DNA of 64,000 bases, from contig NC_049981.1 in the NCBI RefSeq assembly GCF_000003815.2, positions 2,408,010 through 2,472,009 on the forward strand. The letters run 5' to 3'. The notes under the pieces are model-generated. The model searched no databases. It saw only the letters and a list, made by a program, of their open reading frames with translations, and was not told the origin of the DNA. Both the position numbers and the translations under genes were made by a program. Position 1 is the stretch's first letter; the number at the start of each line of letters is the position of its first letter. This DNA is from Branchiostoma floridae. Taxonomy: Eukaryota; Chordata; Leptocardii; Amphioxiformes; Branchiostomatidae. Positions 23,401-63,045 of the stretch are shown piece after piece.

Positions 23401-26400
23401 TTTAACTTTTCAAAATTGAAAAGGTGCTACAAGTTGTTGCCAAAGTTGGGGTGCGTACTTTATTTGAGGTAACTGCACAGATAAATGGTAAGAAAAGCCT
23501 AAAATAAAGCAAGGTGGAGCTACACTTCTAGTAATGTTTCAAAACATACACATTGTTGTTGTCTTGAAGTTGTCTAAACATGAAACAAAGAAATTGTCTT
23601 AACATGATTTACATATTAACAGTGGCATTTGCATACAATCCTTTTGAGTTAGTGACTTTGACTTGTACAACTGGTTTTGCCTGATTTCTTCTACCAGTTC
23701 TCAGTGATTTTTATAATTTGCAGTAGGCAATTCACAAGTTTATAGAGACAATGACAGTGTAAACCCAGGTTATTTTATGCAAAATGACCTGGGGAAAACA
23801 TCATAAATTCGAATTTATTTAGTTAAAGGTCTGTTCAAAACTGGTGGAGAAGGGGTGCGTACTTTATTTGAGTTGTTCCATTTTACCTTTCAGTCCCAAA
23901 GATCTGTCTAAGACTTGTCCAAAATCAGGGGTGCGTACTTTAATTGGGGTGCGTATTTTATTCGAGAATATACGGTACTCAAACAAATGAACGAGGGGGG
24001 GTTTGTAGACAGACATTTCGGACAGCATCCACTCTTCTGTCTGCAACAGATTCTCTCTGATACACCTTACAAGTTGCTTGAGTAACTTTCGTATTGAGTA
24101 TCTCAAAAGTGTACAGTCAGAATATGTGGCTATCAAAAATTCAAAGGCAAAACATCTATCAGCTTTTGTTTCATTGAATGCCGTGTATGAATACTGAAAT
24201 AGGCTCAAATATATCAGATGTTGACAATGCTGTGTGAAATCTTGAACTCTCCCCCACCCAATTCAGCTGACATGCGAAATCAACCGGTTTTGTACCAGTT
24301 TGTTATACACATAAGTTTCCTGCGCTTTGGATCCAGAGTGTGATAGAATGACGCTATGAAAGCCCATGTGATAACAGATTGACATTAAAAGACAGATTGA
24401 TAATGACATTAATTGTTACACAAATCCCCCCCCCCAGGTCCCAGCTGACTGTCCTGGTACTGCTCAACACGAGGCTCACCATGCTGCCTGATGACATCGG
24501 TGAGCTGTCGAACCTGGAGGTCCTCCGCCTCAGCTTCAACCACATCCGCACCCTCCCGCCGGGCATCGGCAAGTGCCACGCTCTACGCTACCTCGCCGCA
24601 GACCACAACGCTCTACGGGAACTCCCCCGCGAGCTCGGCCAGCTCGCTGACACCCTGGTGTCTTTGTTTGTCAACAACAACGAGATCGTCAAGCTGCCGT
24701 TCGAGCTGGGCTTGCTGCGGAATCTGCGGTACCTTTCGCTGGAGAACAACCCGATCGAGTTCCCGCAGCCCAACATCCTGCAGCAGCCTCTGCAGCACAT
24801 CCTGGCGTACCTGCGACCGTACCTGGGAGAGACGGTCGAGGACCGAACTGTCCGCGTGGTGCTCATGGGTGCGTAGAACTTGTCTGTCTGTTCTGGTGTA
24901 CATGCACCCGTACCTGGGTGAGACCGTCGAAGACCAAACCATCAGCGTGGGCTCGTGGGTGTGGAATTTGGGTCCTTTTTGTTCTGTATATGACATCTTG
25001 AATATATTCATAAATCATGAATATATTCACTTGCTTGTTTACCTTATAATCTGGGTGATCGATGATGATGTACGTGTCTTACAGGTGGAAGGGGCGCAGG
25101 GAAGACGACGCTTCTACATGGGATGCAGCGTAAGTACTGGATCGGGACCGCCCCCGACCCAGAGAAAACCGTCTACATCGACATCGCAGACGTGAACCTT
25201 ACTGAGATCCAGCTGCGAGTGTTTGACCTGGCCGGAGATGCAGACGTATTCCAGACGCAGCTTCCGTTCGTCCCGCGCCGCTGCCTCTACCTCGTCACCT
25301 TTGACCTGAGCGTGGAAGCTGTTGACCCTGACAGTGACCTGACGTTCCAGCTGGAGGCGTCGCTGTCGAAGATCTGCGAGCATGCACCAATGGCGTACGT
25401 AATTCTGGTCGGCACGCATGTGGACGACAAACGACTCACGAAGGACATTCTCGACTACACCTGGGGCAAGGTGAAGACAGTTCTGTACTTTCAATTTCTC
25501 AGAAATTACAGTGAATTAAATTATTGTACACTAGAAATTATTGTGTCACTGTCATTATTATTTTGAATAATATAAAGACCAAATACATAAATGTAGTTAT
25601 GTTCTTTATATCCTTTTTCATGGACACTAAATCTGTACTCCTGTTTTCTTTGTGCCTTGACTTAAGTCACCAGACATTCCAGACAATACTATGACTTTCA
25701 ATACATACATTAGGCAACAAAAAATGACATGCCTCCCTCAATAGATTGTAACCTTCTACCAAGTGTTTAAAATACTTTATATATACTTTATATACTTCAT
25801 ATTTTTGTGGTTGTATGTAATGTAAATGAATTGTAAGTTCAAGAACAGCATATACATGATTCAGCTAAAAGGCTGACATTTTAACGACGTAGATAAACCA
25901 TTGTTTCTTTCCCTTCCCTCCAGGTGAACGCCCTGTTACAGCGAGCGCGCCCGTCACACCGTGAGAACTTCAGCGGGGAGTCGTCTATCGGGAACTGCCT
26001 GCTGTGTCAGAAGGCCGATCACCTCTACCGCGTGGCAGAGACACGGAACGGGCCCGGCTACGTCACGGTCGACAGCTTTCGACAGAGGACGCAGTCCATA
26101 GACTTAGGGCGACGCTGGAGCTTTGGGAAGGCGGACGAATTTGAGTCTCCGCACATCCTGGGGTAATTTTGCAAATTCAAGATGTGTTTAGTGAAAGTCC
26201 TCCTCGGTTAGGGACACTGAATTGCATAGGATTTAGAAAGACTAAAAAGATTCAGAGACATACAATATTTGCCCATGACATTGTAGATAGTAATGTTTGA
26301 TGTTGCACTTTGTAGAACAGTCGCTTACAATGGTTAAAACAGTCATGTAACAAATGTGGGCAGTTTAAGAGACGTAAACAAACAAACAAATAAACATGTT

Positions 26401-33080: not shown

Positions 33081-36000
33081 GGCCGCCTCTGTTTACTACA
33101 GTTTGATACCTTCTGTATAGATATGCAAACGCCCCCCTCCCCCTTCTCCATTCACACTCACCCCTCCCACTGTATAGTTTACACAAACGTGTGTCACACA
33201 TTCACACACACAAACACATCATAGAGCTGATTAGTAACACGCGTCCATTCTGTTTGGGATTCTTCCCACTAAACAGTTTGTGCAGAAACTGGTTTGTTTG
33301 GGTGTGTAAGGGGGGATTCTTTAGGTTGTTTTGTTTTCATTTGCAGGACAACTTTCACCTATTTGAGTCTGACTTTGCATTTTTTTCTCCAACATCTTCT
33401 TCAGTGATAATCAGTGATATGTAGTTTGATATTCTATATTGACCAATATAGAACAATAGTCATATTGCAATCATATCCTATCAAATTTACTTTCTGTCTT
33501 GCAGGTATTTTTTGTTCACAAATGCATGCATCTTTCCCCACCCAAGTTTGAGTTTGTTGTATACTTGTTTATTTTTTTGTCTACATGTGACTTTTGGTGA
33601 AATGTTGTCACTCATTTCATTTTGAAGATTTGACATTCATTAAACTGTAGATTCATTTAATTTTTCGATGTTTTTTTTCTGGAGTATTAAGAGAATGGGG
33701 ATTTTCAAGATGTTTTTAGACACACAGTTTAAATGATTATGTAGTGCACAGTAGACAACTTATAAGACACATATTCACAGCGTTGTAAATTCACGATAAA
33801 GAAGAAACAGTAAAGATAAAACCACCGCAAACATGTCAAGATTTCCAATACTGATACTGAAAGAAAGCATGCCCCTATATTGTCCTCTACAGCACAATAC
33901 AAATTCGTCTCAAATTATCAATTCTATCAATCAGCGTCTGAAAGACATTTATTTTCAAACTTTTTTAAGAGAGATACACAATGACAACAAAGGTGGATCC
34001 GCTAAAAACAAATTGAGGTCTTACAGACTGTTCAAGTCCACTTATAATGTGGAACAATACCTGGATATTGACAATATTCGGCACAGGACGGCCGTCACAA
34101 AACTACGAGTCAGTTGCCACAAGTTACACATCGAAACCGGAAGACATAACCGCACTCCTCTAGAACAACGAATATGTAGATACTGCAATCTAGATAAGTT
34201 AGAAGACGAACATCATTTTGTAGTAGAATGTAGTTTGTACAAGTGGGTTTATGAGCTGGTGGCCTGGGTTCGGCACAGGTTTGAATCCCGAGAGCCAGTA
34301 AACTGTTCCTACTCACCTCTTCAGCTCCCACACCAGGAATCGAACCCAGGCCTTGGTGGTGAGAGCGCCAAATCCTAACCACTAGACCACTGTTTCTACT
34401 GGTCTCTTACAGTATATTGCCCCAAACACCTTCATAGACCCTAACTCTCATCAACAAGCTTTAAGTCTGATGGACTCTTTGATATTTTTTTAGACATTGC
34501 CTCCAGTGAGAGAAGTCTTATATTAACGTGTTAGCTAGTGCTGCATATCTAAACTCATATTCAGGTTCAGGCCAGGATTCAGGATCGGGTCTGGACTCGT
34601 AAATACAAGCAAATTACAGGGATATAATGTTAAAAAGAAAGCCACTGTTTTCGGTCATTTTTCTACATTATGAGTTGAGTCTACCTCGTTACACTGCATA
34701 GCAATATTTACAATGTATGGATACGACTTTGTTGCGAGGTGAGGACGTCTTGAAATATGCGCACTTCCCACCGCCGCTTGAGTTGCCCGCCATTTTATTC
34801 AACTCTCCGGTGAACCAAAGTGTGCTTTAGAACGCGTTCGGTGGTTTGCTCGAATCGTTACTGAAGTTTGTTGAAAGTCCCTGCTAAGCTCCGAAGATCT
34901 GCGACCGCAAAGGTCGATTCGGAAATCTACGGCCGTCTTACTTCCAGAAGTAAGGGCTTACTTTGGCGTTGTTGATTAGCGCTAGAAATGTGAAAAAATG
35001 ATGCAGATAAGTTTGAAAAAAGTTACAAATGTCAATCTGACTGGAGATTTTAAAGTTTGAACAGAAAATTTGAAATTTGAAGTCAGTAGTTGACACAAAG
35101 GGTCAGTAATGAACACAAAATGTTGTTGTCTTTTTTACAGTGCAAATTTCACTTACTATGGAAGGTTGTAGATGGTTTAGAACAAAAAATAGTATATAAG
35201 TAAGATTGCTTTTTGCATGTCCGGACTTGGTTTCCGACATTTAGTTGTTCAATGTTCAATGTTCAATGTTTTATTTTATTAAGGTTCTCGCGGGCAAACA
35301 CACATTCACCCGAATTTTGACCTTATTACACACGTCAGGCTTACCAAAGCCACACAAAACACATAATAACAACAGCTGCATACAAACAACGACTTGTAGA
35401 TTCCAGTTAACATTTGTATAACATACATAATAGATTAAAATCAACGTATTGGAAAACGGTACCGAGTTAACAAGCAGTACAGGAATGGCTAACAACAAGT
35501 GTTAATAGCACTACTGTGTAACCTTCTTGTTGTATAGACGGATGGCGCTATGGAGGAAGGACTTGCTGAGTCTCTTAGTACGGGCTTTTGGTAAACTGAT
35601 TGTCCTAGAGTTTCTAAGTGTGCGTCCCGTGGCCCCTGTTCTTGTGGGTGGAACCATGTCATGTAGGGGGTGGTCTTCCTTGAGCATGCGTTCAAACAGC
35701 TGTACCGCTGCCTCCTCCCGTCTGACCTTCAGTGTTGGCAAGTCGGGCACACTGCGTCTACCTCCAAGGGAGATGATGCGCAGGGCCCGGCGCTGTACCC
35801 TCTCGATGGCCAGTTCCTGCTCCTTACTGCACCCGACCAGTATCACATGGCCATACTCAAGTACTGGACGTACAAGTGACAGGTATATCTGTATCAGGTC
35901 CGTTATACTGGTACCTTGCTTCGTCAACAGACGCAGATAATATAGTCTGCGCGATGCTTTACTGATCATTGCAGAGATCTGTTCGTCGAAGGTGAGGTTC

Positions 36001-39000
36001 TTGTCCATGTAGAAACCTAGCCCCTTGGCACAGTCAACGGATGGGACTGGTTGGCCTCCAAGTGTGATCATAGGTGGAATCGGAGCAGATTTGCTGAAGC
36101 AGATCTGGAGAAGTAAACTCTTCCCACCGTTCAGCGTCATCCTGTTGTCTTCTGCCCAGGAGTTAAGATGTGTAGACTCCTCTTCAACAGTTGTATCCTG
36201 ATCGGCTAAAGGCACAGGAATAGTCCTCGACAGAGAAACGTCATCGGCATATCCAACATCCATTGTGTCGTTGTACACGGTGGAGCGTGTGCTCATGAAC
36301 AGCAGAAATAGGTACGGAGACAGCACTCCTCCCTGGGGCACCCCTGACGTTAGGGTGCGCCAGGAGCTGCTCTCCCCGTCCATAACCACTCTCTGCCGTC
36401 GGTTCTGTAAGAAGCTGAAAATCCATCTCTGCATACGAGGGCTGACGTGAATGTCAATGACACGCTGGAGAAGCAGAGCATGGTCCACGCGATCGAACGC
36501 CTTACTCATGTCAGCGAAGATGGCTCTGACGAGCGTCGGCTTGTTTGCGTCCACAGCTGTCAGCCACGTTTGCACCATGCGAACAAGAGCCAGGGTCGTT
36601 GACGAACCCTTTGCATAGGCGTACTGGTTCTTGATGACTGACTGGATGGAGGGTAGCAGCCTTTTCAAGATGCATCTCTCTAGAAGCTTTGCTAAGACTG
36701 AGAGGAGGGACACTGGTCTCATGTCACGAGCTTGACATGCACCGGGAAATTTTGGCACCGGGACCACGTTTGCAGACTTCCAGCCTACAGGAACTGTCCC
36801 CTCTGCGTATGAGGCGTTGAAAAGGTGGGTCACAATCGGAGCAAGGTCCTCTGCGAACTCAGTAAGAATCCAGTTAGGTAAACTGTCGGGCCCGCATGCC
36901 TTCTTGGGTTTGACGGACTTCAGAAGGCACTTGACCTCCCCAATGGAGCACAAGTCAGGACCTGGGTCACCTAGTGGTAGGGGGAACATGTAAAGTGGAA
37001 CACTTTGGCAACATTTGTTGTTTTTGTACTTGGACTTAAACATTTTTACAAGTCGAGTTCCAGTTCAAAGTTTTACGTACACAGCACTAGTGTGAGCACC
37101 CTTCAAAGGGAATCCATTTCTATTTTTACTATTAATTTTTGATATAGTATAATTAGATGCTTGTATGCACCTGTTCATTTGAACAATATGTTAATAATAT
37201 ACATGTCTCTCATGTACATTAACAGTATTACCCACATGAATTTTTGATGTTGCAAGCAGCACATAAGTATGATAATCAAACATATTTTCTTATTTTTGTC
37301 ATATTTTAAAACAGTCAGGAATATGACATTACCATACCATATATCTAATTTTTACTCAGGGCTCGAAATTCAATTTTGGGATTAGGTGCACTGGTGCACC
37401 CAGCTTAAGAAATTGGGTGCACCAAAAATTTTTTGAGTGCACCACTTTAAATTGAAGTAATAACCTAGTAATAAAACTTAGTTACAAGCTATCAAATTAG
37501 TTAAACAAGTACCATGATAGACATTTTTATTATCTTTCTAACACTTAGATGTCAAGAATATGATATATACTAGTATACTTTGATATCTTATACACACAAC
37601 CTAAGAAAATAATTGGGTGCACAGCTCCAAAAAAGCCCTGTTACTTTACCAATAGCTGTTGTTAATTGTAGTTTAGCATTTCATGTAAATTAGTATAGAA
37701 TTGAGGACACCAGTAATAATGTTCATGTCTTCTATTTGCTAATAAAAGGTTATCAATTTATATCTGAAAGAGTAGGGAAGAAATGATTAATGGTTTTATG
37801 ATTTGCAGAAAGTTTCATTGACTTGATAAAGGGAAATTTCTGACAACTTGCAGTTTAGAATATTATTTAATTATAAGTAAACTCAACAGAGGAGTTACAC
37901 AAGAGCTGATGTTTTGGTGACCGTCTGTCAACTTCCTCAGGCAATACTTCTGGTTCTACTCTGCACTGCAGGTATAGGTGGCGCTGCTTACAATGCAGTC
38001 CCTAACATATTGCCTTATTTACATAGTCAAGACACTTCTTAAGAATGTGATCCCACATGTGTACCATCAAATGGCTTAGAAGTAGCATTTGCAAGTTAAT
38101 TGGGCCATTTCCTTGCTTTCTACGATTTTTGATCTTAGAGTACATTTGTAGGCCTAGGCTATAGCCCAAAAGAGTCTATACCCTCCTTCAGCATAGTTCA
38201 TGACTGGAGTGGATTTTCCCCAAACTCTCGCCTCACTAGAAATTTACTGGCTTTGACAAACTCCAAAATTGCAAATACTCCTCTTCCTTCTACTCATAAC
38301 ATTAGAGGAGTAACTGCTCTGGCAGACCCTCCAAAAATAATAAACATAAGCAAAGTGAGCACTAGCTGGTTGTGCAGAAGAATTCTACAATATCCTGCTC
38401 TGGCATACAACTATCTAAGTCCTCCTTGAAACTTGTCCACATGGAGACCATTTCCTGACTTCCCTGTAGTATACACAGAGTGACAAAGCCTGTCATGGCT
38501 GTAACTTGTAACGAAGCACATATCCAGAACGTATTTGTGCATGCAATGATGCAAGTGAACATAAGGTGCACTGGAGTGTCACTGACGTTTCGAAAGTCAC
38601 ATCCAGTTGCTTGGGTAACTGCTATGTGGCATATCTGCTTATTACCTGGATGTCTTGCCTTCATGATGTATGAACTCCCTTTCCAGTTATCATCATTTTT
38701 TCCACCTTTATATTATAGCACTTCATCATGTTTTGCACTGTTGTAGACTAGTATATATTGACAGACGTCACAAGCAGTTTCACTCACATTGTATAAATGT
38801 CCAATGTCACAGAGATACAAACATCTCACATACAGGCAGACCAGCAAGGAGCCTGGGAGCTAGTCTCTTAATACAATTTGCCTGACTGTTTAAACTTTAG
38901 GGTTATAATTGTGTATGTATGTTTTACAGAACCAGAGGTGCAACAGGACGTGTGAGGAGCCTGGGAGCTAGTCTATTAGTATTAGCACAGTTAGCCTGGG

Positions 39001-51000: not shown

Positions 51001-54000
51001 GGGTTTGTTTTTTTTAAAGCTTTGTTGAACTTATGGCACCAGCTGTATCAGTTTGGTAACCCCTGGCAACAGGTTATTAATTTGGTAACCCATGGCAACA
51101 GCTGTATCAGGTGTAGGTCGGTAACCCATGGCAACAGCTGTATCAGGTGTAGGTCGGTAACCCATGGCAACAACTGTATCAGGTGCAGCTCGGTGACGCA
51201 TGGGAACAGCTGTATTAGGTGCAGCTCGGTTACCCATGGGAACAGCTGTATCAGGTGCAGCTCGGTTACCCATGGGAACAGCTGTATCAGGTGCAGCTCA
51301 GTTACCCATGGGAACAGCTGTATCAGGTGCAGCTTGGTGGCCCAAGACACCTTAGCATCAGGTGTAGGTTGGATACAGCTGACAGGTGTCTTCCCTTTTC
51401 CAGGTGCAGTCCGGTAACCCATGGCAACAGATGCAGGCCAGCCAGATGGGTTATGGTTCAGACTTGGCACTGAACCCATCAGCGGGCCCGGGAGGAGCGC
51501 CGCCCCAACAGCTACCCTCCAAACCACCCCCACCATACCCGGGCAGCGCCTCCCTAGAGGCAGGGGGGACGGAGGGCCTGACACCGGAGCAGCTTCGCCA
51601 TCGCCAGGAGCGGCTGATGACCATCCAGCGCATGCACAAGCTGCTGTTCCCTGAACAGGCGCAGACGGCGCCCCCTAGTGACTCCCTAGCAGCACAGCAG
51701 CAGCTGGACCTGGCCAGCCTACAGGGGCAGCCCCTGGGGCGGGGGATGCCGGGCGGCCCACCACGACCCGTGGGCCCCGGGGGACTCAACATGCAGCAGC
51801 AGCCCAGCCCGGGCAACCTACCTCCCAATCAGATGATGTCACCGCACGGAATGATGACATCACAAGCAAACATGATGACATCACAGGGTTGGACCGACCC
51901 TTCCCAGAGTGCAGCAGCTCACAAGGTGGCCATGATGGGGCTGGGGTCGCCGGGGTCAGAGGGCATGGGTTCGCCGGGTCAGCTGGGCGATGATCAGATG
52001 TCGGCTGCGCAGATCGAGTGGCGACGGCTGGAGGAGAGTTTCTACCGCGAGAAACGGAAACGGATGCTGGAGCAGCAGATGATGCGTGGAGGGCCGTATG
52101 GGGGACAGAGGTAACTCACTCACACTCATTCACCGACTCACAGTCACTCACACTCACTCACACACTCTTTATGCGTACACTCATTCACTCTTTCACTCCG
52201 TTGATTGATGGAGGGCTGTACAGGGTACAGAGGTACACTAACTTATTCACTCTCTTACTCATTCATCAGCACTTACTCCTTCACATACTCTCTTACTTAC
52301 CAGCTAGCTGTAAATACATACTAGCTTAACATTTAACTCAGACTACAAAATGTGGAGCACACAGAGGCAGCTGCAACCTATGAACAGTGGCAAAATTTCA
52401 GCATTTTGAAAATGAATGGCTAGTAAAAGACACTTATACGCTCTAGTGTTTCAAGTTGTCAGTTTCTTTATTTGTCCTGTAAAATTTATTTTTCAATGTG
52501 TGCGGGGAACAGCATTGTCCAAGTTGTTTTCAGCCCATAATGCTTTACCCCTGCCTCCATTCTAGGTACCCTGGTCCGCAACAGTTCTTACCTCAGGACT
52601 ATGATGGCCCCCCAGACTCCCAGGGGGCCTTGCAGACTATGCAGCCGCCACCACCGTACCAGGACCTGGCGCGGTTAAACCGACAGCAAACTGGCTTCTC
52701 TACCTCATTCAGTGAGCCCTACACACTGCTGCAGTCACAGCCACAGGGGGCGCCGCAGGACAGACATCCAATGCTGCAGTCTCAGCCACAGCCACAGGGG
52801 GCGCCCCAGGAAAGACATCCAATGCTGCAGTCCCAGCCACAGCCACAGGGGGCGCCCCAGGACAGAAATCCTCTTCTGCAGCCCCAGCCACAGGGGGCAC
52901 CCCAGGACAGACATCCAATGCTGCAGTCCCAACCACAGCCACAGGGGGCGCCACTGGACGGCACCTCCCCCAACTTCAGTATTAGCCAACAGCTTCAGGA
53001 AAGGGCGCGGCTATCGGCCCAGCGGGAACAGCTTCCGCAGTATGCAGGTGGGCAGCCAGCCAGACACCCAGCCCGACCACCATTTAGACACCCAACAGGA
53101 CACCCAGCTGCACACCCAGGCGGACACCCACAACGCTTCATGTACCCCATGCAGGACCGCCCTCGCCCCCAGGTTTGTATCTCTTAAACAGGTATAACTA
53201 TGTAGTGCACCAGCTTCTGTGTCTATATATGTATGGCTGATATGAGAACCCTTAAGAACAACACACCAGCTTCTGCATCTGTATGTGTATCTGTATAGTC
53301 GTATAAAGCTCCCTTCAACATAAAATTCCAGTGTCTATATGTGGATTTATCTGTATTTGCCTTTTGCACAACACACCAGCTTCTATATCCATACAGCTAG
53401 TTACTCCCTTCAGCATAACACACCAGTTTCTATATCTGTATAGCCCTAATAGTAATAACCCCCCTTTAGCTTCTGTATCTTATCATGGAAGGTCATCTGT
53501 GAACCCTCTGGTATAACTCTCCAGCAATAGTTCTTGGAGAAAAATAATTTTGGAACACTTAAAAACTGGATTGATAAATCTGACTCATGACAGTTTCTTG
53601 TTTTGATTTTTACATCCAAACAAGGTCTCCCCATCACAACAATCTGCCATGCAGAGATTGATGATGTCACAGCAGAGTCTGATGATGTCACAGCAGGGAC
53701 CGATGACATCACCAGGTATGATGTCACCGGATGGGTCGGATGGAGGGCTGCTGATGGAGTTCCCGCGGCAACGACACCAACCTGGCAGCGATATGATGTC
53801 ACCCAACTCTGCAGCCAGCCCACAGGGTCAGATGCCACTGGGGGTCAAGGGGCAGAGTTCAGGGGGAAGTGAAGGCACCCCCCCAGATAACGGTCGGTCC
53901 AGCCAGCAGTCAAACCAGCCTGAAACCAGCCTGCCCTCGAACTCACAACCCAACTCCAGACAGCCTAGCCAGATGCCCAACCAGCCCACAACCAGCCACC

Positions 54001-57000
54001 TTCCCAATGAGCCCACAACCGGCCAACAGCAATTGTCTACAACAACGCAACCTTCTTCCAACCAGTCTACCACTGCCCAACCCTCAGTGAACCAGCCCTC
54101 TACCAGCCAGCAGCTGTCCAACCAGACAGTATCCAGTCCAGCCGTTACCAGCCAGCCGCCGACCTTTGCCCCCAGCTCCCTGCAACAGCTGGAGCAGCAC
54201 TTTTCCAAGAGGTTCATGCCGGGCTTCGACGAGGCGCCGTTCAGTAAAACCACCGCCATTAGCACCACTAACGCCATGACCTCCGGCTCCACCACTGTTA
54301 CCATGACAACCGCCGCGGTGTCCAGTCGAACCGGGACCTCGGCTTCGGACGGTTCTGTTGCCATGGCGCCCAAGTTCAAGGCTCCCCCTCCCCCGACTAA
54401 CGGCGTGAAGCCATTGGCCAGCGGTGATAACGACAATGTCGCGTCTCCACACGCTGCTGCTGAAAACAGAACTGTGTCACCTGCTGGGTCATCCCCAGCA
54501 CAGGTCAAAGGACAAGGGTCAGCAGATTCAAAGCCCATGTCCCCAGCTGTGAAGTCACCTGCAGTTCCCCAATCTGCCCAGCAGGGGTCCTCGCCAGCAC
54601 CGGTGCCCTCCCCCAAACTGAAGCGGCAGCCATCTCCAGCCCTGGCAAACTCCCCGGCCGTGCAGTCTTTACGCTCCCCCGCGCCGGGCTCGCCATTCGC
54701 TCAGCCGCTTAAGTCGCCCATGGAGAAAAAGTCGCCAAAGATTCCACCGCCATTGAAGTCACCCTCAGAGGTCAAATCTCCCATGATGCCACAGAGGCAG
54801 TCGCCAGGACTGAGGTCACCCACAATGCCTCAGGAAGCAGGCAGTGGTGTTCCGAGCTCTCCTGCTGTGCCCATCAAATCCCCCGCTGTCCTCAAGTCTC
54901 CCAGCATGCCTAGCAATTCTCCCATGATGCAGCAGGTCAAGTCGCCCATGAGGCGGCAGGAGAGTTCCCCAGTGGTTACCATGGTGAGGCAAGAAATCCC
55001 CAAAACCATGTTGCCGGAGAGGTCACAGGTCATCCCCACAACAATGCGACCTTTGTTGCCAAGGCAACCACAGCAACTGGACACCATGAGTCAAGGTCAG
55101 AGGCTGGCAATGATGGCTGGTCAAAGTGCAATGTTAGGTCAAAGTTCAATGGGACCACAGATGTCAGTGGCCTCGTCAGGACAGTTCAGCCATCAGATGG
55201 GCGGTTTCCCCCGGCAACCATCACCAGGGCAACGCCATATGATGGGCCGTGCAGCGCAGTACCTGGCCCGTCCGCCAGGTGGCGACCTGGAGAACCAGTC
55301 GAGAGGGAACATTATGTACTCCCAGTCACAACTGGTTCAGATGCAGGCACGCTATATGGCTGGGCTGAGGCAAGACACCCCCTCACCAGCAATGGTACCT
55401 CCCGGAATGAGACAGGACACCCCCGCTGCAGCAATGGTGTCATCCCAGCCCAGGCCCACCTTTGAACCCCAGACACCTGTGGAAATTGGACCAAACACGG
55501 AGTTCGCCCTGGCTTTCCAGAAACGGGGGCCCCCCTCCCCACCACAGAACAGGTTTCCCAGCCCACAGCACTCCCAGCCCCCACACCCTGGGGATCCAAG
55601 ATACTCCCACCCTGGGGACATGCAATTCAGCGAGCCTCAACAAGTAATGGATGCAAGATATCCTCACCCCGGGGACAGCAGGTTCCCCCACCCTGGGGAG
55701 AGATTTCCCCAACCTGGGGAAAATAGGATCCCCCACCCAGGGGACAGCAGGTTTCCCCACCCTGGAGACAGCAGGTTCCCCCACCCAGCAGAAAGGTTCC
55801 CCCACCCTAGGGAGGAAAGGTTTTCCCACCCAGGGGACAACAGATTTCCCCACCCTGGGGATAACCGGTTTCCACATCCTGGGGTCAGCAGGTTCCCCCA
55901 GCAAGGCAACCAGAGATACCCCCACCCTGGGGAGAGATATCCCCACCCTCACCCCTCCTTAGACAGTAGGTTTCCCCACCCAGGGGAAGGCAGGTATGGG
56001 GAGGAGAGGTACCTGGCCCAGGCGGCCGGGGATAGCCGGTTTGTGGCACAGCGGATGGCAGGGATGCTGCAGGTGGGTTGGTTTTTAACAGCCAAAAAAT
56101 GACTGAAATTCCACAACAGTTTACAACTCATAAGAAAGTACATTGTTTATTTGAGCTTTAAATTATCTATCAGCACTTCACTTGGTGCTATATGGCACTT
56201 CTAGGGCTGTTTGAGCTGTTTGTTTGGTGTGCCTTATGTTCATTGTTCACATAAGAGTGTGAAGTATTGCAGGGAACTTGACAGCCTATGTTTGTGTTGT
56301 ATTTCTGCAGGACGGTCTGGAGGAGGCGAGCTTGATGGACAGGTCAGTAGCACTACAGAACCTGCAGAACATGCTCGGTCCACCGCGATCCATGGCAGAG
56401 TCACTTAGCAACAACATGGAGGCGTTTCCAGGGCAACGACAAATGGTGGAAGAGATGAGATCGCAAGAGGCAGTGCAAAGCATGTTGGGAAGGATGATGC
56501 AGTCCCACAATGCCATGGGAAATGCTGCCATGCAAAAGTCTGGCATGCCTGCAGGTCTGTCCCATGGTGCAATGCAAGGACCAAGAATGACCACGCCCTA
56601 CAGCACAGCAGATGGGGCCATGGCAGCAGGTCAAGGGTCGGTGGGAGGTCAAATGTCAGGAGGTCAAATGTCGCCAGGGGGTTTGATGTTCAAAGCGCCG
56701 GGGCCGATGGGGGATGCTGGGATGGGCGTTCCCGTACAGGACATTCAGCAGACTAGGAAGGCACAACGGTTCGTGTTGCCAACGGAAACACCAACCAGAA
56801 CTCTGCAGTATTTTCCCGCAGGGAAACCTGCCGAGCGGGCGCCGCACCCGGGCATGATGCAGCCCGCTATGAGTGCCCCGAACCTCTCGGCCAATCAGGA
56901 GCCTCAAAAGAGGATTTCTTTCTCCGAGGAGAACCTGATGCAAGCTGGGGTCAGAGCAATGAACCCTGGGTATCCTGCAATGAACCATGGGTACTCAGGC

Positions 57001-57015
57001 TACCCTGGACAGTAG
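32761..57015 (+). CDS. CECR2-like DDT/WHIM N-terminus joined in frame to BCL9/legless (putative fusion gene)
   Basis: Fifteen exons join in frame: 32761-32785, 39143-39249, 39978-40072, 44109-44217, 46282-46377, 46852-46906, 47415-47617, 48168-48347, 49761-50163, 50421-50563, 50729-50830, 51404-52110, 52566-53172, 53625-56072 and 56311-57015 (1,994 codons). Residues 1-290 resemble the N-terminus of CECR2, an ISWI-partner chromatin factor. The match covers a WELVQVAQFLRLF helix, LEAELRQRD, a YWYFDDLRLYKE WHIM-like strand and KEWTSFVKKFR. Residues 291-1994 are BCL9-like: a basic GKKRKRE segment, HD1 (binds Pygopus), HD2 (binds β-catenin), HD3, KSP-rich repeats and a C-terminal TLQYFPAGK motif. 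In BCL9 these parts link β-catenin to Pygopus in the nucleus. No bromodomain is seen. Two tandem genes remain possible, with the break inside 48348-49760. Confidence 0.75.
33780..34240 (+). mobile_element. Non-LTR retrotransposon C-terminal fragment
   Basis: The translation from about 33833 has a LRSYRLFKS...YL stretch and the zinc-knuckle-like end CRYCNLDKLEDEHHFVVEC. That combination is typical of the C-terminus of some invertebrate LINE polyproteins. It stops at a SINE insertion. There is no RT core, so this is a remnant. Confidence 0.65.
34240..34403 (-). mobile_element. tRNA-Glu-derived SINE (pseudo-tRNA head)
   Basis: On the - strand, 34330-34392 reads TGGTCTAGTGGTTAGGATT, then GGCGCTCTCACC (CTC anticodon loop), then GGGTTCGATTCC. 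These are the D-, anticodon- and T-arms of tRNA-Glu. The acceptor stem halves do not pair, so it is not a functional tRNA. The body continues toward lower coordinates with a second B-box-like GGATTCAAACC. Confidence 0.65.
35244..37065 (-). mobile_element. CR1-like LINE, 5'-truncated, reverse-transcriptase ORF
   Basis: A 510-codon open frame (35511-37043) encodes a reverse transcriptase. It has the ACGPDSLPNW, RPVSLLSVLAKLLERC, FADMSKAFDRVDH, SGVPQGGVLSPYLF and catalytic GYADDVSLS motifs, then a LGFYMDKNLTF thumb and the C-terminal tail. No endonuclease precedes it, which implies 5' truncation. The 3' end shows the CR1-like short tandem CATTGAA repeat (35245-35266 on the other strand). The frame has no stop, so the insertion is young. 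It sits antisense in intron 1. Confidence 0.92.
37363..37640. repeat. Dispersed repeat rich in GGTGCACC
   Basis: It begins AGGGCTCGAAATTCAATTTTGGG and ends CAGCTCCAAAAAAGCCCTG, with GGGTGCACC motifs inside. It resembles the unit at 42528-43097 in layout (GCTCGAAAT ends, internal palindromes), which suggests related non-autonomous elements. Confidence 0.5.
38833..39142 (+). repeat. Tandem ~105-bp copies of the exon 2 acceptor region
   Basis: Copies of TTACAG|AACCAGAGG(T/C)GC(A/G)GCAGGAC..GGAGCCTGGGAGCTAGTC occur with AG at 38928-38929 and 39032-39033, before the real 39141-39142. A partial copy lies at 38833-38870. Only the last continues in the coding frame. Confidence 0.9.
39143..39249 (+). 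CDS. CECR2-like exon 2
   Basis: 107 bp, phase 1 to 0. It encodes LEARQDLRGAWELVQVAQFL and RLFRQKLGFADIN. It matches the first DDT-region helices of CECR2 (WEVPAIAHFCSLFR-like), including the exon end before the LEAxL helix. Confidence 0.85.
39978..40072 (+). CDS. CECR2-like exon 3
   Basis: 95 bp, phase 0 to 2: RLEAELRQRDSAPLADTLAR, then LLRYLFTRTDIR across the junction. This matches the CECR2 LEAALHRDD...LLQGCYQRRDI region. Confidence 0.85.
40073..40270 (+). repeat. 55-65-bp tandem copies of the exon 3 donor region
   Basis: The real donor ATATCAG|GTTAGAATAT is followed by copies ACATCAG|GTGAGAATAT (GT at 40128-40129), ACATTAG|GTGAGAAG (40183-40184) and GACATCAG|GTGAGAAG (40248-40249). Each is separated by CATAGGTCAGAGTTCGTGC. 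Confidence 0.9.
40691..41775. mobile_element. Possible non-autonomous DNA transposon in intron 3
   Basis: The left end GTAACGGGGGCCGCCCTAAGACGGT and right end ACCGTGTTGGGGCACCTCCCGTTAC are imperfect inverted repeats. An internal AAGCGTACCGAGTTAGGCAC (about 41503) repeats the right end. No transposase ORF is visible. Confidence 0.55.
42528..43097. mobile_element. Inverted pair of GGGCTTGAAATA...ACCTGCAC repeats
   Basis: About 42528-42662 and 42960-43097 are inverted copies built from CACCTGCATAT, TTAGTGCAGGTAAAATTGGAGCTGTGCAGGTATTTC and GAGCCCTGG. A third related piece lies at 42760-42850. It is a fold-back, non-autonomous repeat. Confidence 0.7.
43870..44108. repeat. ~60-bp imperfect repeat before exon 4
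   Basis: Four copies of ACATCCAG..TAACCAATGGCTGTCTTTG with an AACCAATCAGGGAGCCTG spacer. The last copy supplies the polypyrimidine tract of the exon 4 acceptor (CTTTGTTCCTCCAG). Confidence 0.75.
44109..44217 (+). CDS. CECR2-like exon 4
   Basis: 109 bp, phase 2 to 0: LGSWEADVKRVLTETGSQWK, then PFASGASYADMDPYQR. It is positioned like the CECR2 YLEDIINYRWEL...LPLRTR segment. The donor is CGG|GTGAGT. Confidence 0.8.
45040..46180. repeat. Minisatellite of ~37-bp GGGACAAGTTTCTGG units
   Basis: About 25-30 units of GGGACAAGTTTCTGGTACCCCAGATATTTCTGTGTAT fill intron 4. The stretch 45650-46030 is nearly homogeneous and also shows a higher-order repeat (two copies of a block with GGTCCAACNTTTTCTTGTGTGGGACAAG). 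Long ORFs in several frames here are artefacts of repetition. Confidence 0.95.
46282..46377 (+). CDS. CECR2-like exon 5
   Basis: 32 codons, phase 0: LVFLKGVADHVFEQKVDELS, then EYLDETYDPEDM. It corresponds to CECR2 [21 protein letters not shown]. Confidence 0.85.
46852..46906 (+). CDS. CECR2-like exon 6 (WHIM-like strand)
   Basis: 55 bp, phase 0 to 1: RAVPIGQDSLKNTYWYFD. The P(I/L)GxDxxxxxYWYF pattern is shared by CECR2, RSF1 and related chromatin factors, so this is the best diagnostic of the family. Confidence 0.9.
47415..47617 (+). CDS. CECR2-like exon 7
   Basis: 203 bp, phase 1 to 0: DLRLYKETVGRKGEKWECVC, then NLKEWTSFVKKFR, EKELYEFLHGQLLPLIL. It matches the CECR2 WWLLCQTEEEWRQVTESFRER...LYKLLSEDFLPEI stretch. 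Confidence 0.88.
47618..48030 (+). repeat. Decayed copies of the exon 7 end and donor; C-rich tract
   Basis: 47678-47744 copies the exon end (CAGCTGCTGC..CTTATCC..TTCAGACACTGGAGGGACTCTCTCAG|GTAAGC). 47868-47933 and about 47972-48018 are weaker copies. A (CCCA)n/poly-C tract (47745-47815) lies between. Confidence 0.85.
48168..48347 (+). CDS. CECR2-like exon 8 (last before the BCL9 part)
   Basis: 60 codons, phase 0 both ends: DADRRRFETAEFLRREEQEV starts a charged helix, then a Ser/Thr-rich tail. The donor ATG|GTATGT is strong. Reading through it would stop at 48375-48377 after ten residues, which could give a short CECR2-only isoform. Confidence 0.75.
48348..49760 (+). other. Intron 8: junction between CECR2-like and BCL9-like parts
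   Basis: Contains an 878-bp TA-flanked MITE and otherwise nothing I recognise. There is no clear poly(A) signal after exon 8, no CpG-rich promoter and no obvious BCL9 first exon with an ATG. Confidence 0.6.
48731..49608 (-). mobile_element. TA-flanked MITE, family 'CAGTCAAACCTGCCC', copy 2 (long form)
   Basis: Same subterminal sequences as 30969-31458 but in inverted orientation and ~390 bp longer inside. The right end is slightly diverged (GCAGGTTTGACTG). TA lies at both edges. No transposase. Confidence 0.88.
49761..50163 (+). CDS. BCL9-like exon 9: N-terminal region with basic motif
   Basis: 134 codons plus one base. Ser/Pro/Asn-rich sequence with GPKPDRTSP-type repeats, then PSGKKRKRETSTDSRDS. 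This resembles the GKGKRERSISADSFDQRD segment ahead of HD1 in vertebrate BCL9 and probably is a nuclear localisation signal. No in-frame Met occurs in the exon, so translation must start upstream. Confidence 0.85.
50421..50563 (+). CDS. BCL9-like exon 10: first half of HD1
   Basis: 143 bp, phase 1 to 0. Pro-rich, then QQQYAYIFSTELANK. The conserved HD1 core continues in the next exon. The donor is AAG|GCAAGT, a GC-AG intron with otherwise perfect consensus. Reading on as exon would break HD1. Confidence 0.9.
50729..50830 (+). CDS. BCL9-like exon 11: second half of HD1
   Basis: 34 codons, phase 0: AAEAVLQGRVQSIVAFHIEH. Joined to exon 10 it gives the FSTELANKAAEAVLQG signature of the Pygopus-PHD-binding HD1 helices. 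Confidence 0.95.
51047..51360 (+). repeat. 36-bp minisatellite derived from the exon 12 start
   Basis: About nine units of GGTAACCCATGGCAACAGCTGTATCAGGTGCAGCTC. The exon itself begins GTGCAGTCCGGTAACCCATGGCAACAGATGCAG, so the repeat unit contains the acceptor plus the first ~30 exon bases. Confidence 0.95.
51404..52110 (+). CDS. BCL9-like exon 12: HD2 and HD3
   Basis: 235 codons plus two bases. HD2 is at about residues 560-590 of the joined protein (LTPEQLRHRQERLMTIQRMH, then KLLFPE); this helix binds β-catenin in BCL9. HD3 is near the end (AQIEWRRLEESFYREKRKRM). Between them lie Pro/Gly/Met-rich spacers. Confidence 0.96.
52566..53172 (+). CDS. BCL9-like exon 13: Gln/Pro-rich repeats
   Basis: 607 bp, phase 2 to 0. 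It carries five tandem copies of a QSQPQPQGAPQDRHPML-type repeat (about 52728-52960), then HPxxHP stretches. Low-complexity spacer regions are normal for BCL9, but this expansion is local. Confidence 0.88.
53200..53480. repeat. ACACCAGCTTCTGTATCTATA repeats
   Basis: Five or six loose copies in intron 13, also seen at about 19628-19735. This suggests a dispersed or simple-repeat family. Confidence 0.6.
53625..56072 (+). CDS. BCL9-like exon 14: long low-complexity region
   Basis: 816 codons, phase 0. Order: Met/Ser/Gln-rich, Thr/Gln/Ser-rich (53870-54130), a conserved-looking SSLQQLEQHFSKRFMPG helix (54178), a KSPxxxKSP region (54535-54960) like the SPxxxLKSP stretches of BCL9, then Gly/Met/Pro-rich and a tandem RFPHPGDS/N/E array (55560-55990). 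Transactivation-type composition. Confidence 0.9.
56311..57015 (+). CDS. BCL9-like exon 15: C-terminal region
   Basis: 234 codons plus TAG. Met/Gln-rich, then PTRTLQYFPAGKPAE (about residue 1920), matching the SQTLQYFPRGE motif near the BCL9 C-terminus. It ends NPGYPAMNHGYSGYPGQ. This motif ties the last exon to BCL9 rather than to a separate gene. Confidence 0.92.
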   Translation, partial: DGLEEASLMDRSVALQNLQNMLGPPRSMAESLSNNMEAFPGQRQMVEEMRSQEAVQSMLGRMMQSHNAMGNAAMQKSGMPAGLSHGAMQGPRMTTPYSTADGAMAAGQGSVGGQMSGGQMSPGGLMFKAPGPMGDAGMGVPVQDIQQTRKAQRFVLPTETPTRTLQYFPAGKPAERAPHPGMMQPAMSAPNLSANQEPQKRISFSEENLMQAGVRAMNPGYPAMNHGYSGYPGQ

Positions 57016-59130: not shown

Positions 59131-61166
59131 TTTATTGTTTCACTCATTCAGAACTCTCCAAGCAGAGGTTCGGGTTCATCTCCGGCTGATTTCTATGTCT
59201 TTTAGGGAATTTTTATCATCCTTTTTTATCAAAGTTGTTTTTGTGTGCTATAAGGATTGGGGTCAGGTAGCCTACAATACGATGGATATGTGCTTTGTAT
59301 GCAAACTGTATGTGTACCCAGGGTCCCCCTAAAAAGCAGCTCCTATGCCTCTGAGGGAGCAACCCTGAATAAAGAAAACAAAAACAGATACATAATAGAT
59401 TTTAAAAAAGGACAAGAGAAAACCTGATAAAAACACCTAAAAAATACTTGAAAAGCCAACTGGAGCCAAACCTCTGCTAGGAGTGTACTCCTGCTCAACA
59501 GACAGAATGATTCAGCCAGGCACACTCAAGGATATTCATCTTCCAAAGTCAACCATTCTTACCATCATGACACTGACTAGGTTTATATCATTAGCTTGGC
59601 TGTTTAAATGCAGCAGCCAGCGCTACCTGACTAGCCGAAGGCATAGTGTTAAACAGGGCGAGCTGAATCGCGTTCACAATAAAACACGTTCACCCTTGAT
59701 CCAGTTTCACACCAATCCACATTCGTATTCCATGTAATTCTGAAGTAAACTCAGGTCCAGTTTGTGCTCTGAATCACATTGTCATGCCAAATTCGAACCA
59801 TCTGCTGACAACAGCTCCCTCTACCGATCTGACATGTTAGTAATTGTTATCGTCGCCACATAAGGCCCTGTTACCATGGTAACTGTTTACTTGGCCAAAC
59901 GGGTGAACTCGTGTGAGTAATAAATGATTCATTAGCGCAAGGAGCTTTTATAATGTTCTGCATAACCGGTAAAACACCCACGTTGTACATTACATGTGAT
60001 CACTCTTTCAGGTATAAGCTGCTCATTCACACCTCTTCTTGTGTGGTGCTCCAGGTGTGGGTCTCCTCAAACACAGGACCTTCGGCTTAACGTCCGACCC
60101 GAAAGGCTCTCTCTAACCAAAGCGGCCATTTTCACTTGCTGTGTCGAGTTAGGGATTTGAAATAGGTGTAAAGCAGCTTTCCAGTCATCACTGGCACCTG
60201 CTAGGAATTCGAACCCATAACCTTTAGATTCCTAAGTCAACATCCTCATCACAAATTCGCCTTGCCACTGAGAGGTGCACATTTTCTCCTTGTTAATCAA
60301 TGTTTAAGCTAAGTTGTTTTTCACTCATATTTAGCTGGCATTTACCCGAACTTAGCTTGTGTATATGTGATAATGGAGGTGACGTCATTGGCGGGAAAGT
60401 TACCAAATGTGTTGGGAAGTTTGAAATGTCAAGAGGCGGTAATGCGATACAAGTGCTGTTAAGTTTTTGTTCCAACATTTGCATGTTGCTCGCCGTGCAC
60501 TTTGCATTTACGCAAAGGTGAACAATAGAATTTTGATTTGAGGCCAGTGGGTTGCTATTCTAGAAGGACACTGTATCGCTCTCCTTTCAAAACCTTTTAT
60601 CTCTCCAATTGAAGTCAAGTACCCATTCTTACACCTTGGTTGAGTGAGGAAAGTCTTGATCCCCATTGTTTGTTTTTCGTTATCTTTTTGTATTTTCATG
60701 CTTTGATGTAGTGTAGATGTAATTGTTTTACATTTGAATCAGTTTTTTATGCAAGGGCATAAAATAAAAAATGAATTAAAAGATAAGCATTAACACAAAA
60801 TGAAGCCTCAGATGTCCAAAATCGAAAGGTCACGTCGTTCGAATCCTGGCGGTCGGATATATGTTATGTCCATAGGAAACAAGGCGAGGTCGAGTTGGTG
60901 CTTTTCTAATGGGCTTGAGATTTGCTATAGAAACTAAGACGTTGATTTTGAAATCTAGTTATTAGACTCGTATATATTTTCAATTTCCTGCATGCGGTAA
61001 AAGTCTTTTCTGGAAGCTCCAACAGCAAAGTTTGAGCTCCTCGGCAACTCCAGCTCCAACGGCACCGAAGTTGCCTTGGAAACCGCCAATCACCGACCAC
61101 TCCTGAAGTTTCTCACCAACCAGCGCTCACCCTCCCGTGTTACGTCACAGGCTACACACACACACA
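59131..61166. other. Intergenic DNA
   Basis: No gene recognised. About 60040-60260 carries a repeat of the ACAGGACCTTCGGCTTAACGTCCGA type with tRNA-B-box-like GGAATTCGAACCC. Another B-box-like GTTCGAATCC is near 60838. These are probably SINE remnants. Confidence 0.5.
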
Positions 61167-61244
61167 GCTTGAAAAGAATAAAGTGAGTTCTGAAGGTGCA
61201 ACAGGTTGCTACGACGCCCAGGGCACTCCGGGGTCATGTGTCAA

Positions 61245-61422
61245 CAGGTGTGACTCCGGTTCACCTGTGCAGCACACCTGAGGTTCCCACCTGCCGACAG
61301 GAAAGGTGTCTAAACACACCTGCCGTTCCCAACCTGCCGACAGGGGAGGTGTTTAAATCTGCGTGCAGGGGGAGAGGAGCGTCAGACGAAGCCGAGGAGT
61401 CTTCCTGTCCTGACGTGACGTC
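61245..61422 (+). promoter_or_regulatory. Putative promoter of the peptide gene: E-box cluster and TTTAAAT box
   Basis: Five CACCTG/CAGGTG hexamers lie at 61245, 61262, 61275, 61288 and 61317. TTTAAAT at 61352-61358 is about 65 bases before the ATG and may act as a TATA-type box. A full CRE palindrome TGACGTCA (61416-61423) overlaps the start codon. Motif matches only; function is inferred. Confidence 0.35.
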
Positions 61423-61476
61423 ATGATGATCCAAGTTGGTGTCGTGCTTGTACTGGTGGGGCTGCAGCTGGTGCAG
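61423..61476 (+). CDS. Peptide precursor exon 1 (signal peptide)
   Basis: 18 codons, donor CAG|GTAGGC. Two ATGs in tandem (61423 and 61426), either would give a signal peptide. The hydrophobic core VGVVLVLVGL is typical. Confidence 0.85.
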
Positions 61477-63045
61477 GTAGGCGGAATGTCTCCTTAAGTC
61501 TTTACGTCTTAGATCTTAAGTCTTTACGTCTTAGACCTGCAGCTGGTGCAGGTAGGCTGAACGTCGTCTTACGTCTTTACGTCTTACATGTTAAGTCTTT
61601 ACGTCTTAGACCTACAGCTGGTGCATGTAGACTGAAAGTCTTCTTACGTCTTCCGTCGTAAGTCTTTACGTCTTAAATCTTCACGTCGTATGTGTTAGAC
61701 CTGCAGCAGGTGCAGGTAGGCAGGGCAGAATGTTTTCTTACGTCTTTACGGTCTTACGATTTAAGTCTTCAAGTTTGTACGTCCTAAGTCTTTACATGTT
61801 GAGGCAACTTGGAGCTGTACTTGTCCTGGTGGGGCTGCATCTGACGCAGTTAGGCAGGGCAGAGCGTTTTCGATAGTCAAGAACGAGCTGACTAAGGATA
61901 CAGTGAACGTTATCCAAACCTTTTGGATCTACCCAATTGTAACATGTAATATAACCTGCCGTTTCCTCCCCAGACCAGCCCGCTCCCCGTCCATCAACCC
62001 AGACAGCTTCCGGACAATCTGCGGGAGGAGCAAGGTAAGGAAAATCACTGCGATTCACTATTAGTATTACACGACAGTGACTTTATCATGTTCAGTCGGC
62101 TTTACACGTTGAAACTAATGTACTAGTGTTGATCTTTCTGCCAATTTATTTTAGTGACGCTAAAAAAGACTGATTTCAGGATGTTATTCAGTTACACAGC
62201 AGGTTGAATTGTCCTTGCATATAAATCACCGATATTGCTACACATGAGAGGAACATGTTTTAAACATTTCAGTTAAGCGTCGGCTTCAAGATCTCCAGGA
62301 GAACCTCGGCAACGGCTTTCCTAGAAAGCGACAATTCCAAGATCCCCAGGAGAACCTCGGCAACGGCTTTCCTGGAAAGCGACAATTCCAAGATCCCCAG
62401 GAGAACCTCGGCAACGGCTTTCCTGGCAAACGACAGTTTCAAGATCCCCAGGAGAGCCTCGGCAACGGCTTTCCTGGAAAGCGGCAGTTTCAAGATCCCC
62501 AGGAAAGCCTCGGCAACGGCTTTCCTGGAAAGCGACAGTTTCAGGATCTCCATGAGAACCTCGGTAACGGCTTTCCCGGCATACGGCAGTTTCAAGATCC
62601 CCAGGAGAGCCTCGGCAACGGCTTTCCCGGCAAACGGCAGGTTCAAGATCCCCAGGAGAGCCTCGGCAACGGCTTTCCCGGAAAGCGACAGTTTCAAGAT
62701 CCCCAGGAGAACCTCGGCAACGGCTTTCCTGGAAAGCGGCAATTTAAAGATCCCCAGGAGGACCTCGGCAACGGCTTTCCCGGCAAACGACAGTTTCATG
62801 ATCCCCAGGAGACCCTCGGCAACGGCTTTCCCGGCAAACGGCAGTTTCAAGATCCCCAGGAGAACCTCGGCAACGGCTTTCCCGGCAAACGGCAGGTTCA
62901 AGATCCCCAGGAGAACCTCGGCAATGGCTTTCCTGGAAAGCGGCAATTTAAAGATCCCCAGGAGGACTTCGGCAACGGCTTTCCCGGCAAACGGCAGTTT
63001 CAAGATCCCCAGGAGAGCCTCGGCAATGGCTTTCCTGGCAAGTAA
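61423..63045 (+). CDS. Multicopy amidated (neuro)peptide precursor, 295 residues
   Basis: Three exons: 61423-61476, 61974-62034 and 62273-63045, phases 0 and 1, with consensus GT-AG sites. Exon 1 is a hydrophobic signal peptide (MMIQVGVVLVLVGLQLVQ). Exon 2 is a short spacer (TSPLPVHQPRQLPDNLREEQ). Exon 3 begins with VKR and then fifteen tandem 51-bp units of type QFQDPQENLGNGFPGKR. Twelve units end GKR, the canonical signal for prohormone-convertase cleavage and C-terminal amidation. Unit 1 ends RKR, unit 6 GIR, and the last GK-stop. N-terminal Gln would cyclise to pyroglutamate. Predicted product: pQFQDPQENLGNGFP-amide and variants, released by regulated secretion, probably for a G-protein-coupled receptor. 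GNGFP is invariant in all fifteen. I do not recognise the family. Confidence 0.9.
61490..61860 (+). repeat. Tandem copies of the signal-peptide exon edge with TACGTCTTA repeats
   Basis: Copies of GACCTGCAGCTGGTGCAG|GTAGGC occur near 61534, 61605 and 61698. A longer one at about 61809-61860 copies GTACTTGTCCTGGTGGGGCTGCATCTG..CAG. They are separated by GTCTTTACGTCTTA units. Confidence 0.85.
61974..62034 (+). CDS. Peptide precursor exon 2 (spacer)
   Basis: 61 bp, acceptor CCTCCCCAG, donor CAAG|GTAAGG, phase 0 to 1. Encodes 20 residues, no dibasic site. Confidence 0.8.
62273..63045 (+). CDS. Peptide precursor exon 3 (fifteen peptide units)
   Basis: Acceptor ATTTCAG. V-K-R precedes unit 1, giving the first cleavage site. 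Units vary at set positions: Q-(F/V)-(Q/K/H)-D-(P/L)-(Q/H)-E-(N/S/D/T)-(L/F)-GNGFP. Changes at silent sites between units (GGA/GGC, AAG/AAA, CGA/CGG) show selection on the peptide rather than mere DNA copying. TAA at 63043-63045. Confidence 0.92.

Follow-up and report, generated by a model that had tools for sequence, protein, structure and literature searches.

Amphioxus serves as a reference for how the endocrine brain of chordates arose, and the locus described here raises the question of whether an array of 51-bp tandem units in its genome belongs to a gene for secreted signalling peptides and, if so, to which known peptides that gene is related. The window, meaning the whole 64,000-nucleotide stretch that was analysed, corresponds to C3:2408010-2472009 of the 513.4-Mb assembly of Branchiostoma floridae. 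As read from its sequence, the locus is best explained as a functional gene for a secreted prohormone, one of a family that includes members with ring-type peptides, a reading to which a probability of about 0.83 is given. It is an ordinary gene of its kind, encoding a multicopy amidated prohormone, and no name for its family was found in the open-licence papers searched. What is new is that the window gene has relatives in the same genome, as far as sequence comparison can tell.

Gene organization

The three exons proposed in a first-pass annotation of this DNA are exact at both junctions (61476/61974 and 62034/62273), and once joined they give a frame of 888 nt that encodes 295 amino acids and a stop, with zero internal stops (Table 1). 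The same annotation had listed a signal peptide; judged by hydropathy, exon 1 encodes a hydrophobic, signal-peptide-like start (9-residue maximum of 3.09) that has no clear cleavage site. The spacer is encoded by exon 2, between the signal-like exon and the unit array, and the exon 3 frame, described earlier as devoid of an ATG, has none in its stop-to-stop translation.

Within intron 1, the interval 61462-61860 holds three more copies of the final part of exon 1, each with a donor-like GT, together with a full second copy of this exon, for which the roles of alternative or dead start exon are both possible; from its letters, the copy is probably dead.

Table 1. Coordinates of the features of the window gene (window positions) and of related or control loci in the genome (contig positions)
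Feature	Position	Strand	Details
TATA-box-like TTTAAAT	61352..61358	+	Pattern scan; ~70 bp upstream of the ATG; putative core promoter element
Perfect CRE-type site, TGACGTCA	61416..61423	+	Pattern scan; overlaps the first base of the start codon; putative function
Exon 1, coding part	61423..61476	+	MMIQVGVVLVLVGLQLVQ, signal-peptide-like; phase 0; donor GTAGGC
75-bp tandem duplication	61462..61674	+	3' end of exon 1 and donor, extending into intron 1
Second exon 1 copy, MLRQLGAVLVLVGLHLTQ	61796..61849	+	42/54 nt identical; TT at the position of the donor GT
Exon 2	61974..62034	+	Spacer TSPLPVHQPRQLPDNLREEQ; phase 1 end; donor GTAAGG
Exon 3	62273..63045	+	VKR, then fifteen units; TAA stop codon, 63043-63045
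Array of fifteen 51-bp units	62281..63045	+	Encodes QFQDPQENLGNGFPGKR and variants; repeat finding, translation
AATAAA	63585..63590	+	Pattern scan; candidate polyadenylation signal, 540 bp past the stop
C3 ring-peptide cluster	C3:349500-361000 and 388500-398000		Tandem; four loci and one altered copy; four signal-peptide-like exons, MLF(A/P)V...LCLCSMQAAG
NPLDPIRN gene	C3:2349566-2351071		~118 kb from the window gene; reached from the C14 protein
C14 hybrid precursor stretch	C14:6059414-6060655	-	414 aa open; 16 DPLSPI(V/S)NGQ-amide copies
Amphioxus calcitonin-type peptide	C4:18129120-18129266		GKIACKTAWCMNNRLSHNLSSLDNPTDTGVGAP-GRKRR, ends NPTDTGVGAP; in-genome control

Repeat units and predicted peptides

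All fifteen units announced in the first-pass annotation are present and 12 of them end in GKR, as it had counted (units 2-5 and 7-14); their length of 17 residues has one exception, unit 15, which has 16 residues because it ends in GK-stop. Unit 1 ends in RKR, without an amide donor, and unit 6 in GIR, without a dibasic site, and units 6 and 7 would stay joined. From these four kinds of ending (RKR, GIR, GK-stop and GKR), 12 discrete 14-residue peptides bearing pyroglutamate and amide are predicted, namely those of units 2-5 and 8-15, which agrees with the pyroglutamyl, amidated 14-mers ending in GNGFP-amide that had been anticipated. Four of them would be pQFQDPQENLGNGFP-amide and three pQFQDPQESLGNGFP-amide, and the calculated [M+H]+ of such 14-mers is 1572.71 or 1545.70. 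The GNGFP motif is present in 15/15 units of the translated array, and the Q, G and K positions are kept in 14/15 despite synonymous turnover in their codons; the codons for P, G, K and R show synonymous change.

Evidence for a coding gene

Repeat finding recovered the 51-bp array independently, as 14.8 copies with 89% matches. For the exons upstream, an exon-chain test over 61000-62272 admitted chains that begin with an ATG and a hydrophobic stretch, use donors and a first acceptor that were scored, and stay open once joined; the splice weights were entered by hand, and the second acceptor, whose score is weak (0.97), was held fixed. A single chain fits in this interval, with two adjacent Met starts, and any chain at all was found in 1/200 dinucleotide shuffles at loose thresholds and in 0/200 at the observed scores.

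Variation among units 2-14 gives a pN/pS of 0.17 in the coding frame. The remaining two sense frames give 3.6, and the antisense frames 1.7, 1.9 and 0.27, the last value being that of the frame with shared third positions. The variants fall into 10 synonymous types and 10 that change an amino acid (p 0.004 when every possible change is allowed for, p 0.09 under a transitions-only expectation). Control repeat arrays, of which 14 were tried and five were unusable (four with too few units and one without variation), reached a pN/pS of 0.17 or less in the best of six frames in 4/9 usable cases; some of the nine may be coding. Because of these equally low values, pN/pS was rejected as proof of coding and downgraded to supportive evidence. 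The case for a gene is carried by the exon chain and by the relatives, both read from sequence.

Relatives in the same genome

A codon pattern for NGFPGKR has 15 matches genome-wide, 12 in the window gene and three outside, and the reversed control pattern has none in the same search. All three outside matches, of which C14 has one and the C3 cluster two, lie in KR/RRR-rich frames, encode a ring-type version of the peptide, such as pQYDCSVDGTCDALGNGFP-amide, and carry, beyond the searched letters, a G before NGFP. The linear array is seemingly single-copy in the genome.

At 350-394 kb, the C3 cluster has four loci whose main exon is open, and a fifth locus, near 360 kb, is altered; the four encode seven peptides of the form RRRQ(Y/A)(D/G)C-x6-CD...FPGKR. 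The C14 frame contains 12 DPLSPIVNGQGKR, four DPLSPISNGQGKR, several PLxPIxNGQ(F/Y/L)-KR variants, RRRQYDCSVDGTCDALGNGFPGKR and CLWDPSDSICFGKKKR; its predicted peptides include a single ring-type GNGFP-amide peptide (QYDCSVDGTCDALGNGFPGKR) and CLWDPSDSICF-amide, and no convincing signal exon was found within ~9 kb. By their endings, the eight ring peptides divide into GNGFP (three), GDGFP (two), GGGFP (one) and NSFP (two). The NPLDPIRN gene consists of a Met-led frame, MEVFINLLTAINTF..., followed by ~36 intron-free units of the pQ(Q/D)NPLDPIRN-amide type, 35 of them recovered by pattern (29 being exactly Q(Q/D)NPLDPIRNGKR) and one being QDSPLDPIRNGKR. The calculated [M+H]+ is 1176.612 for pQQNPLDPIRN-amide and 1841.711 for the C14 ring peptide. 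A Pfam scan of three relatives, the NPLDPIRN gene included, gave no match.

A genome search with the whole precursor gave 62 rows to an E-value of 10, for which 15 loci were retrieved; it listed one C3 ring locus with an E-value of 0.077 and 50% identity across query positions 67-112. The row at C3:354555, outside the retrieved loci, proved on reading to be a true relative. Eight loci outside the gene were read and discarded as unrelated repeats, and three more overlap two of these eight. The reverse search, with a ring gene as the query, reached the window array only at E 8. Ring and linear peptides have an RQ start in common, and 3/8 ring peptides also the GNGFPGKR end. The alignment of the linear peptide with the eight ring peptides was equalled by 0/20,000 full shuffles and by 233/20,000 in which NGFP was fixed, which lends moderate support to a kinship beyond the searched-for motif; as compared here, the ring-linear link rests mainly on the short C-terminal motif. 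The linear array may have arisen from a ring peptide by loss of the ring and amplification. Homology of gene structure between the window gene and the C3 and C14 genes is not claimed, the intron phases being unreconciled and a convincing C14 signal exon lacking.

The multicopy amidated precursor of the first-pass annotation is supported by the exon chain, by the residues kept in the units despite synonymous turnover and by relatives in the same genome with RQ...GNGFPGKR.

Proposed processing and action

The precursor would enter the regulated secretory pathway, in which prohormone convertases would cleave after KR and a carboxypeptidase would then trim these two residues, PAM would convert the Gly into a C-terminal amide and glutaminyl cyclase would form the N-terminal pyroglutamate. 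Each precursor would yield about twelve 14-mers, for example pQFQDPQENLGNGFP-NH2. The copper-monooxygenase family, which includes PAM, is represented by 37 genome matches to PF03712, a model that is not PAM-specific. Since GNGFP is found in every unit and the processing residues in nearly all, the C-terminal amide end is likely to be the receptor-facing part of the peptide; this invariant GNGFP-amide end would be read by a receptor, most likely G-protein-coupled, with the variable positions 2, 3, 8 and 9 of the 14-mer presumably less important.

Alternative explanations and comparison with known peptide families

The absence of a match to a named family, noted in the first-pass annotation, extends to 5.39 million open-licence papers, in which the peptide strings returned nothing relevant by title; the gene may still stand in closed or tabulated lists. 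Its judgement that the likeness to NG peptides is superficial was borne out as well. NG peptides/neuropeptide S (SFRNGVamide in B. floridae) have in common with the window gene the Asn-Gly pair, amidation and dibasic sites, but the window gene has no neurophysin and its NG is internal to the 14-mer. With an E-value limit of 0.01, the genome has two neurophysin matches, both on C4 and neither near the window gene, and the NG precursor on C4 combines two SFRNGVGKR with a neurophysin domain, the arrangement reported for B. floridae in PMC5860471 and PMC5818035. An NG peptide/neuropeptide S identity was rejected, given the lack of neurophysin and the separate C4 locus of the true NG precursor. TRH-type precursors resemble the window gene in their many copies, pyroglutamyl start and amidation, and the vertebrate and amphioxus forms end in Pro-amide (PMC4772807); this identity was rejected too, 14-mers being predicted here against the tri- and tetrapeptides pQxP(x)-amide of the same source. 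A KRQSPGKR pattern restricted to TCN serine codons had 0 matches in the genome, so the known amphioxus TRH gene was unrecovered as a positive control.

Among the readings that dispense with a prohormone, a repetitive secreted protein with another role (mucus, adhesive or defence), its KR sites unprocessed or its products not signalling, has the commonness of such proteins in its favour, but it is improbable in view of the exact register of Gln after KR, amide-donor Gly and closing KR in 11/15 units and the similar sites in the relatives; moreover, the sole Pfam row for the precursor, DUF5338, is below the cut-off, and a PDB search to an E-value of 1 gave no relative. A noncoding minisatellite or dead gene, open by chance, is very improbable: the genome has other open arrays of the 51-bp type, several with a low best-frame pN/pS, and a decayed copy of exon 1 lies inside intron 1, but against this stand the exon chain, the signal-like start and the relatives in independent precursor frames. 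An origin of the peptides from the C-terminal, receptor-binding end of calcitonin, or a mimicry of that end, which would make miniature calcitonins of the ring-bearing relatives and possible antagonists of the ring-less peptides, draws on the Gly-x-Gly-x-Pro-amide end shared with this family (PQENLGNGFP-amide against human PQTAIGVGAP-amide and salmon PRTNTGSGTP-amide), on the amidated C-terminal Pro, a calcitonin/CGRP feature predicted here from FPGKR, and on the ring-type cysteine pairs of the C3 and C14 relatives. Against the human and salmon sequences, 35/200,000 shuffles were as good as the window peptide, which reached z 6.1 in one setting and 4.0 in another, where the 35 other peptides peaked at 2.0 and 1.9, and calcitonin ranked first of 22 families in 3/3 settings; the C14 ring, moreover, is C-x5-C, as in calcitonin. 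The likeness to these two vertebrate sequences fails against the amphioxus calcitonin recovered in the genome, one of three reported, of 31-33 residues (PMC6283891): z is 1.0-1.6, with 442-873 of 5,000 shuffles as good, and it is 0.6-1.3 against the sea cucumber AjCT2, whereas the human, salmon and AjCT2 ends match the amphioxus peptide at z 3.0-5.0. The window peptide has no Cys ring, no central helix and half the length (14 against ~30 residues), the C3 rings are C-x6-C, unlike calcitonin, and the calcitonin Pfam model, at E up to 1, has two matches in the genome, both on C4 and none at the window gene or its relatives. Because of the mismatch with the amphioxus peptide and the absent ring and helix, the comparison points to convergence on the Gly-x-Gly-x-Pro-amide end, and a calcitonin origin or mimicry is regarded as quite improbable.

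A further proposal, compatible with the prohormone reading, is that the gene family is a diverged and newly amidated chordate branch of the pedal peptide/orcokinin (PP/OK) type, in which case the peptides would act as modulators of muscle and cilia. PP/OK precursors of molluscs, arthropods and echinoderms are described as a signal peptide followed by 9-21 dibasic-bounded tandem peptides of ~13-19 residues, and the window gene likewise has KR-separated multicopy peptides of comparable length. Both kinds of peptide have a Phe near the N-terminus and Gly-Phe near the C-terminus; the echinoderm pattern also includes an Asp-X-Leu core and an aromatic residue near the C-terminus (PMC9793003), and the window peptide has F2 and F13, with a core D-P-Q rather than D-P-L, DPL being found in relatives. 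The window peptide aligns to orcokinin from end to end with a single gap; its alignment to a starfish peptide runs through F, DP, L and GF and needs several gaps. Aligned to a panel of four published PP/OK members under four settings, it scored above all 31 unrelated peptides in 3/4 settings, and the C14 ring peptide, QQNPLDPIRN and TPLDPIENGQY did so in 4/4; the scores of the window peptide and three relatives against the four members are within or above the members' mutual range. PP/OK is also first of 22 families in 3/3 settings for the C14 ring peptide, QQNPLDPIRN and TPLDPIENGQY. As of 2017, PP/OK-type peptides were unidentified in chordates or hemichordates, possibly through divergence, according to PMC5656890.

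Several observations weigh against this descent, which is considered doubtful. For the window peptide itself, PP/OK ranks 2, 4 and 2 of 22, with calcitonin ahead each time; the N-to-S variant, DPLSPIVNGQ and a C3 ring peptide exceed all decoys in only 2/4 settings, and SSPLHPMENGQF and LPLLSPIENGQL in 0/4. Ring cysteines are not a known feature of PP/OK peptides, and the window peptides differ further in their predicted pyroglutamate, some of their relatives having ring-type cysteines. Starfish PP/OK peptides are not amidated (PMC5814872), whereas amidation is predicted from GKR for the window peptides, and no PP/OK receptor was known in 2017-2018 according to PMC5818035 and PMC5656890. The peptides are too short to settle descent, the idea was formed after they had been seen, and the panels for the other families, like the decoys with few exceptions, were entered by hand; because of this post hoc choice, the hand-entered decoys and the short peptides, PP/OK is put forward as a possibility and not as a family assignment. 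The more specific proposal that the window gene, the C3 and C14 ring-peptide genes and the pQ(Q/D)NPLDPIRN-amide gene form one superfamily, the missing chordate PP/OK branch, with amidation acquired and a disulfide ring added in one line, is on the sequences compared slightly more doubtful still.

Significance

The proposed prohormone family comprises four precursor types (the linear GNGFP array, the C3 ring-peptide cluster, the C14 hybrid and the NPLDPIRN array) and adds candidate ligands for the orphan receptors of amphioxus, while linear and ring-type peptides with a common C-terminal motif offer a natural structure-activity series. If the PP/OK link were true, a system unfound in chordates as of 2017 would be present there and not lost at the chordate base, and orphan amphioxus receptors could be screened for its first chordate member.

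Surroundings of the gene in the window

Elsewhere in the window, 2616-11372 is occupied by two open frames of great length that contain several arrays and a recurring motif of ~75 residues (FEEEL..NAEFLW...LQLLRK); the Pfam scan of the first frame gave one weak row below the cut-off. A fragment of a retroelement reverse transcriptase (RVT_1) is found on the minus strand at 35511-37064. The interval 51383-57015 holds a BCL9-like gene (PF11502 in 51383-52114), followed by long Pro/Gln/Met-rich frames, and pieces of a Roco-type gene lie on the plus strand at 24352-29349, with LRR, Roc and COR-A, and with COR-B below the cut-off.
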